Below, piece by piece: positions 26,903 through 28,441 of a stretch of DNA of 49,105 nt. A program made the translations under genes and the position numbers. This DNA is from Geobacteraceae bacterium (GTDB taxonomy: Bacteria > Desulfobacterota > Desulfuromonadia > Desulfuromonadales > Geopsychrobacteraceae): contig SLDV01000098.1 of assembly GCA_007125165.1 (NCBI GenBank), positions 1 to 49,105 of the forward strand, in the 5' to 3' direction. The stretch's first letter is position 1, and each line of letters begins with the position of its first letter. Below the pieces are notes generated by a model. It was not told the DNA's origin. It did not search any database and saw nothing but the letters and a program-made list of their open reading frames with translations.

Positions 26903-27868
26903 ATGCTCAAACGTATAGCCGTATTGACCAGTGGTGGTGACTGCTCAGGAATGAATGCAACGGTGCGAGCTGTTGTCCGTAGTGCCCTGGTATCTGGAAT
27001 TGAAGTGATCGGCATACAAAAAGGTTATCAGGGGCTAATGGATGAACTTTACATAGCATTGAATACCCGTTCTGTCAGTGGGGTGGTTCAGCGCGGCGGC
27101 ACCTTTCTGCAGACTGCCCGCTGTAAAGAGATGCGGACCCCGGAAGGCTTGCAGCGTGCCTGTGATAACCTGAAAAAGCTCGATGTTGAAGGGCTTGTGG
27201 TGATCGGCGGTGATGGTTCTCTGGCAGGTGCTCACGCAATTGATCAAAAAGGCATACCGGTTGTCGGTATTCCGGCTTCAATAGACAACGATATTCCTTT
27301 TACCAGCCCTTCATTGGGAGTTGATACGGCACTGAACAATATCATCAGAGCTGTTGACAATCTGAAAGATACTGCATCATCCCACAACCGCGCCTTTGTC
27401 GTGGAGGTGATGGGGCGCAATTGCGGTTACCTCACGGTTGTTGCAACCATTGCAACCGGCGCTGAATACAGCCTGATACCTGAGGAGCCTTTTGCTCTGG
27501 AAGATATCTGTGCGGATTTGCGTCGACGTTACCATGAAGGACGCAACAACAGTATTATCATGGTGGCTGAGGGTGCCGGGCGCGCTGAAGATATCGCCGC
27601 TCAAATCAAAGAACGTATCGGTTTTGAAACTCGGGCTATTGTTCTCGGGCATTATCAGCGCGGTGGTTCCCCGACCGCGTTTGATCGACTTTTAGGCGCT
27701 CGTTTCGGGCGTGCTGCTGTTGACGGTCTGGTACAGGGCAGAAGTGGCACAATGGTTGGTCTGAAAGGAGCGTCACTTATATACTCAAAACTTGATAAAG
27801 TGACTTCAGCCGGTATCAGGCCGATTAATCCCATGTTTCACTATCTGGCCAACAGTTTATCCATTTGA
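26903..27868 (+). CDS. pfkA: ATP-dependent 6-phosphofructokinase
   Basis: Phosphorylates fructose 6-phosphate in glycolysis. It has 321 residues, the classic bacterial PfkA size. Signs: TSGGDCSGMNATVRA (ATP loop), VIGGDGSLAGAH, where Gly after GGD favours ATP over pyrophosphate, IPASIDNDI (catalytic loop; Ser stands where E. coli has Thr125), MGRNCGYLTV, and HYQRGGSPTAFDR. The ribosome site AAAGGAA precedes the ATG. It is followed after 150 bases by the selenoprotein rhodanese on the same strand; a functional link is not evident. Confidence 0.95.
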   Translation: MLKRIAVLTSGGDCSGMNATVRAVVRSALVSGIEVIGIQKGYQGLMDELYIALNTRSVSGVVQRGGTFLQTARCKEMRTPEGLQRACDNLKKLDVEGLVVIGGDGSLAGAHAIDQKGIPVVGIPASIDNDIPFTSPSLGVDTALNNIIRAVDNLKDTASSHNRAFVVEVMGRNCGYLTVVATIATGAEYSLIPEEPFALEDICADLRRRYHEGRNNSIIMVAEGAGRAEDIAAQIKERIGFETRAIVLGHYQRGGSPTAFDRLLGARFGRAAVDGLVQGRSGTMVGLKGASLIYSKLDKVTSAGIRPINPMFHYLANSLSI

Positions 27869-28018
27869 TGTGATGCAGAACTCCCAATTTGAAGTCGCAT
27901 CTGCTATAGTTAACCGCAATGGTCAACTATGTTGCTGGAGGATTCCTGCGCCGGAGTATTTTTTAAAACCGTTTTATTGATTATTTTCCACCGCAGCTAT
28001 ACAAAAGGAGTTTACAGG

Positions 28019-28441
28019 ATGTTATTGAGATTCTTCAGTTTTGGTGTGCTTTTGTGTCTGGTAATGGCTACGACCGCCATAGCAGTGGACAGTATCCCTG
28101 CTCATCCTGATCAGATTACACGGATCAATGTTGTTGACCTTCGTGCCCTGCAAAGTCAGGAACCTGTTGTGTTCGTTGATACGCGAACGGCAGGCCAGTG
28201 GCAGCAAGCTGTTGATAAAATCCCCGGAGCGATACGCGTTACATCTCAAGTGGAACTTGATAATTTGAAACGCACGGTACCGACCGAGACGGTTGTAGTC
28301 ACTTATTGTACCTGACCGAACGAGTCTTCCAGTGCCGGTCTGGCGCTGATACTTGTCAATAATGGTTATAAAAACGTCTATGCTCTCTTAGGAGGATATG
28401 CTGCCTGGAAAGCGATGGGATTGCCGGTAGAGGGAAAATAA
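28019..28441 (+). CDS. Exported rhodanese-like selenoprotein (in-frame UGA read as Sec99)
   Basis: A 140-residue protein read through TGA 28313-28315 to TAA 28439-28441; both lie in the frame of ATG 28019, which has AAAGGAG eight bases upstream. A signal peptide (about 1-22, ending TTAIA) sends it to the periplasm. The rhodanese fold follows: INVVDLRALQSQEPVVFVDTR, GAIRVTSQVELDNL, then the active loop TYCT-U-PNESSSAG, and finally GYKNVYALLGGYAAWKAMGLPV, the domain's conserved C-terminal end. In Cys homologues the loop reads YCxCPNExxSA, so UGA stands at the second Cys. Cys97 sits where rhodanese has its catalytic Cys. A SECIS-like hairpin follows the UGA. A stop-codon mutation (pseudogene) is the alternative, but the frame stays clean and conserved after it. 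Likely role: periplasmic sulfur transfer or thiol redox (inference). Confidence 0.87.
28313..28350 (+). promoter_or_regulatory. Bacterial SECIS-like hairpin after the UGA codon
   Basis: CAGTGCC (28330-28336) and GGCGCTG (28342-28348) form a 7-bp stem with one G-U pair, closing a five-base apical loop GGTCT (28337-28341). The loop starts 21 bases after the UGA. E. coli fdhF mRNA has the same GGUCU in its SelB-binding loop. GAGT/ACTT can extend the stem below. Confidence 0.8.

Follow-up and report, generated by a model that had tools for sequence, protein, structure and literature searches.

Does the UGA that interrupts a rhodanese-like frame in an uncultured, Desulfuromonas-like Geobacteraceae bacterium end a truncated protein, or is it read as selenocysteine (Sec) within a complete enzyme, and what would such an enzyme do? 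The locus lies in the window analyzed here, i.e., the whole stretch of 49,105 nucleotides of contig SLDV01000098.1, and the host genome assembly comprises 2.64 Mb in 172 contigs and is 93% complete.

Gene and predicted protein

Re-reading of the sequence returned exactly the start, in-frame UGA and stop of the original prediction: the frame opens with an ATG, passes the UGA within the motif TYCT-U-PNESSSA and closes with TAA at 28439–28441 (Table 1). An ORF finder that does not allow read-through gave 128 aa from an ATG at position 27929; from the ATG at 28019, the truncated call is the 98 aa that had been foreseen. Ordinary annotation would cut the full selenoenzyme to one of these two lengths.

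Table 1. Features of the selenoprotein locus in the window.
Feature	Position	Strand	Basis
Predicted exported-rhodanese selenoprotein gene, 140 residues, UGA as Sec99, domain ~31–140	28019..28441	+	Frame, PF00581, AlphaFold2
Shine-Dalgarno-like AAAAGGAG, ends eight bases 5' of ATG	28003..28010	+	Sequence
Probable N-terminal signal peptide (MLLRFFSFGVLLCLVMATTAIA)	28019..28084	+	Read from sequence; AlphaFold2 helix 5–18, low confidence
Cys97 codon TGT, canonical persulfide-bearing Cys of rhodaneses	28307..28309	+	Invariant column (window's clade)
Predicted Sec99 codon, in-frame UGA of CxU motif	28313..28315	+	TGA in 100/100 CxU homologues
bSECIS hairpin CAGUGCC-GGUCU-GGCGCUG, loop G at 28338 (+23)	28330..28348	+	Folding, homologue conservation, covariance model

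The 140-residue read-through constitutes one single rhodanese domain in Pfam (PF00581, residues 40–132, 50.5 bits against a gathering cut-off of 22.2), in agreement with the proposal that the part after the UGA is the conserved C-terminal half of this domain. In an AlphaFold2 model computed with 58 homologues in the input (pLDDT 92), the catalytic loop lies between a strand (residues 92–96) and a helix (residues 100–114) and contains Cys97. Within the window's clade, residues Y96, C97, U99, E102, S105, and A106 do not vary. The best match among solved structures is E. coli GlpE (1gmx; Z 15.4, rmsd 2.1 over 104 residues, 29% identity), a single-domain thiosulfate sulfurtransferase that shares the fold and the catalytic Cys opening the active-site loop. 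GlpE differs in that its loop bears neither a second Cys nor a Sec; it is a cytoplasmic, selenium-free protein. The N-terminus MLLRFFSFGVLLCLVMATTAIA-VD has, by reading, the form of a signal peptide, with a low-confidence AlphaFold2 helix over residues 5–18, and in several relatives a lipobox-like N-terminus takes its place. Judged from this N-terminus, the protein is probably exported.

Conservation and decoding of the in-frame UGA

Homologues were sought in the family, in the order and in an evenly drawn sample of the phylum, and nearly all matches carried one TGA. In all 100 distinct CxU homologues ([YF]-[C/U]-x-U) from genomes of the order and phylum, the TGA occupies the same codon. The codon of Sec99 is also TGA in three congeners that are 68–69% identical to the window protein overall, one of them being the isolate Pelovirga terrestris (L009, 69% identical, apparently the identical contig to L014). 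Since the 100 order and phylum sequences, that of P. terrestris included, share this codon, the TGA is no sequencing error, a concern of the original prediction that is dispelled by independent genomes with the identical TGA. Cys was found at the Sec site in two homologues, L158 (YCDCPNEASSA) and L160 (YCACLNEASAA), both placed in the window's half of the tree described below. The UGA had been said to fall where family members have a Cys, and a lack of Cys-bearing homologues would have spoken against Sec; the two CxC forms exist, with Cys replacing the lost Sec. Across the genomes sampled from order and phylum, this site thus usually holds Sec and only exceptionally Cys (100 versus 2 found). 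Between the window gene and those of the three congeners, dN/dS was 0.11–0.14 after the TGA and 0.16–0.23 before it, i.e., purifying selection downstream of the TGA is as strong as upstream.

The Sec machinery, whose presence had been put forward as a check, was found in the genome. The genes selA, selB, and selD are immediate neighbors on contig C13 (4806–9106, L100), each scoring over its curated cut-off, and a tRNA-Sec with anticodon UCA is located on contig C148. The selD gene has an in-frame UGA of its own (SSG-U-AAKI), by which SelD itself appears to be a selenoprotein.

By default, an in-frame stop codon terminates translation, and pfkA in the window does end with TGA (27866–27868), so that the UGA might be a genuine stop that leaves a pseudogene or a 98-residue half domain, the downstream frame being a relic or a sequencing error. 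Such an outcome is highly improbable given that the TGA is shared by 100 homologues of many genomes, that the Sec machinery and a SECIS are present and that purifying selection continues downstream; moreover, the half-domain product would be missing the strand and helices that complete the rhodanese fold at its C-terminal end in the AlphaFold2 model. For practical purposes, the conserved frame past the TGA rules out a pseudogene or sequencing error. The open frame through the UGA would also fit a general reassignment of this codon to Trp or another amino acid. We rejected this even less probable explanation because UGA still terminates normal genes in the window, pfkA just upstream among them, because homologues have Cys rather than Trp at the site, and because tRNA-Sec, SelA, SelB, SelD and a SECIS are present. 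Taken together, the UGA at 28313 is almost certainly decoded as Sec in a CxU rhodanese.

Conservation of the hairpin downstream of the UGA

A search of the window with Rfam at gathering thresholds returned three tRNAs only and no SECIS match, and the hairpin was therefore tested by means of the homologues. Its 7-bp stem pairs positions +15 to +21 after the UGA with +27 to +33 and encloses the loop GGUCU at +22 to +26. The stem length, the loop and the bSECIS form agree with the original prediction, in which the loop had been placed at +21 instead of its actual start at +22. The folding energy is -16.1 kcal/mol, which gives a z of -2.2 when compared with dinucleotide shuffles and of -2.6 when compared with synonymous recodings, and over 99 homologues the hairpin has a mean z of -1.07 versus -0.26 for upstream windows. 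Folding energy alone is weak evidence, and codon constraint and covariation are stronger tests.

The coding stretch encodes a conserved peptide, SASLA or SAGLA, and the conservation of the hairpin is therefore partly driven by the protein. However, the third codon positions argue against the peptide as an explanation of all of this conservation. The Ser codon at +16 to +18 is always AGY rather than TCN in the 98 sequences with Ser (98/98), Ala at +19 to +21 is encoded by GCC in 99/99, and Ala at +28 to +30 by GCR (GCA or GCG) in 94/94. Furthermore, the 100 distinct homologues with TGA at this codon all share the hairpin, which puts it far beyond chance, and base +23 of the apical loop is G in 100/100. 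Positions +18 and +30, which are the third positions of the Ser and last Ala codons and pair with each other, are T-A in 45 sequences, C-G in 42 and T-G in 12. For 50 aligned sequences, the covariation score was 0.213 compared to 0.112 after shuffling (0.213 was reached in 0 of 500 shuffles), and sliding the stem partner in this alignment destroyed the pairing.

A covariance model was built from 50 homologues and found a single place in the window, at 56.1 bits, the next best scoring 7.4 bits (E 2.4). The window's score is partly a matter of construction since the window sequence sits in the model, and the informative part of the search is the absence of other matches. A search of the whole genome with the model gave two matches, each located directly at the UGA codon of a CxU rhodanese. 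These results identify the hairpin as a conserved bSECIS.

Relationship to known CxU rhodaneses

The original prediction had cautioned that the family may not be wholly new, and rightly so, as CxU rhodaneses are tabulated in PMC9312934 and PMC13188914. Proteins of this kind have been known since 2005 and are both published and modeled: they correspond to form 3, CxU, in Table 1 of PMC13188914, which credits it to Zhang and Gladyshev (2005), are listed as "COG0607 form 2, CxU" in PMC9312934, and are represented by the NCBIfam model NF041203 (rhodanese_LYCAU, "rhodanese-related (seleno)protein"). With its YCTU motif and single rhodanese domain, the window protein falls under the form-3 definition of the two reviews. 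It shares with NF041203 the single rhodanese domain, a signal-peptide-like N-terminus, YC with Sec two residues on, PNE-xSA after Sec, a common SECIS and alignment over the full length (17–140 on 4–126), but it differs in carrying YCTU where the model has LYCAU. It scores 97.7 bits and does not reach the equivalog cut-off of 115 bits. Another known selenoprotein, the rhodanese/DsbD fusion-like TsoB (NF045694), likewise has Sec within the rhodanese active-site loop, but with a different spacing (UxxxxU) and in a fusion of 572 positions; against this model, the window protein scores 31.6 bits versus 805.

A tree of 100 CxU rhodanese domains separated a YCAU-rich (LYCAU) part from a YC[TS]U half. 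The window's half has 47 rows, mostly YCTU (support 84/98), and within it a smaller starred group comprising 32 rows (support 95/85) includes the window. Because the tree columns are few and the bootstrap unsettled, only the main split and the starred groups were used. Tested members of the YCAU-rich part (L035, L129, L152) score 166–171 bits against NF041203, whereas all 31 Sec members of the window's starred group stay below the cut-off (set at E ≤ 2.4e-33, which equals approximately 115 bits as calculated from the window's own score). With 0/31 clade members at the cut-off, we filed the protein in a sister clade (YCTU) and not in the NF041203 equivalog.

The curated model for the CxU kind thus misses the window's clade entirely, and this branch is easily misannotated because it lies below the score demanded by NCBI's own model. 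As Sec is the rule at the site, lowering the cut-off or adding a second model would put many records right. What is new here is this sizeable clade missed by NF041203, the strong SECIS evidence for it and a neighborhood with Sec-MsrA, described below.

Putative function

No function is assigned to CxU rhodaneses in the reviews PMC13188914 and PMC9312934. The window protein is most likely an exported CxU persulfide/disulfide oxidoreductase on a sulfurtransferase fold, a function that we infer, and for its mechanism we consider a redox cycle rather probable. The UGA at 28313 would be read as Sec by means of the bSECIS 15 bases downstream, SelB and tRNA-Sec. Cys97 would then accept sulfane sulfur, or attack a disulfide, Sec99 would resolve the intermediate as a Cys97–Sec99 selenosulfide, and an external reductant would subsequently reduce the enzyme. 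With its reduction coming from outside, the protein would therefore act as a persulfide/thiol oxidoreductase of the cell envelope and not as a classical thiosulfate:cyanide sulfurtransferase. Glu occupies the third position after Sec in 98 of the 100 CxU homologues. In thiosulfate sulfurtransferases, the corresponding loop position is usually basic or neutral. Several sequence features favor a redox enzyme over a thiosulfate:cyanide sulfurtransferase: the second chalcogen residue, the substitution of Cys for a lost Sec, the occurrence of UxU motifs, and the loop Glu.

It is possible, although we regard it as unlikely, that the protein is a selenoprotein and yet a true sulfurtransferase, for example of the Sud-like polysulfide type, in which Cys97 or Sec99 would carry sulfane sulfur to an acceptor while the other residue of the pair would merely tune reactivity. 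The complete rhodanese fold and the invariant catalytic Cys are in line with this, as are the best solved matches, which are the sulfurtransferases GlpE (1gmx) and SseA, with the Wolinella protein 1qxn among the Foldseek matches. Sud of Wolinella succinogenes (1qxn) is an exported single rhodanese domain and as such a possible functional parallel, but it is a selenium-free homodimer and a weak structural match among many rhodaneses (Foldseek TM ~0.57). The order Desulfuromonadales, moreover, includes sulfur- and metal-respiring anaerobes, which also suits a sulfurtransferase. One example is Pelobacter carbinolicus (PMC3543383). On the other hand, one Cys suffices in known sulfurtransferases, and a second redox-active residue, be it Sec or Cys, together with the loop Glu fits the redox role better.

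Gene neighborhood

The window gene is flanked by pfkA upstream and by the ATPase gene of an amino-acid ABC transporter downstream. No redox neighbor was found at the gene itself and no conserved redox partner within the window's own genus. In six relatives (L018, L020, L022, L023, L024, L026), the rhodanese gene converges on an MsrA gene, and the neighboring MsrA has a hydrophobic N-terminus and a UGA at its catalytic site (ALG-U-FWG). By coordinates, Sec-MsrA likewise lies within 2 kb of a CxU rhodanese gene in G014 (C96) and G043 (C2). The link at ≤2 kb thus extends to eight relatives in four genera, the window's genus not among them, and no Sec-MsrA was found in the window's 93% complete genome.

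This gene order may be taken as a further hint of a redox role, and the link to an anchored Sec-MsrA provides a first testable functional idea for CxU rhodaneses. In a more far-reaching reading, which we regard as improbable, the YC[TS]U clade would be a functionally separate selenoenzyme, not yet covered by a model, that works with the neighboring N-terminally anchored Sec-MsrA, passing electrons to it or receiving oxidizing equivalents from it, and the two would form a selenium-based pair that repairs oxidized sulfur groups in the cell envelope of Desulfuromonadales. A frame of ~138 residues resembling FlK-type thioesterases lies 16–40 bases downstream of the rhodanese gene, in the same orientation, in L017, L018, L024, and L026; it was set aside as a functional hint because it occurs in few genomes and is absent here.

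Additional putative Sec-containing rhodaneses

A second CxU rhodanese selenoprotein is predicted in the same genome. This paralogue (L085; contig C84, 57843–58247) has the motif YCLU-PRERSSAG and its own SECIS, which scored 49.7 bits with the covariance model, and a protein of the same type is present in the congener G040 (L089). Rhodaneses in which a UGA follows the catalytic Cys at a distance of five residues (CxxxxU) were detected in the same genome, on contigs C38 (L086), C148 (L087), and C15 (L088), and in relatives (L092–L098). Their motifs include YCRNLSU, YCMGVRU, YCGGLAU, and YCLGRKU, several are double domains, and a hairpin follows each of them. L088 resembles a lipoprotein with multiple rhodanese domains and may be similar to ExtH of Geobacter. 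The review table lists UxxxxU (TsoB), and a text search of the review gave no CxxxxU. Finally, the codon of the catalytic Cys is also TGA (YUTU or YUAU) in L122, L129, L153, L154, L155, L156, L157, and L163, apparently giving double-Sec active sites; in L156, L157, and L163, the YUxU rhodanese is found within long fusion proteins of ~540 aa.
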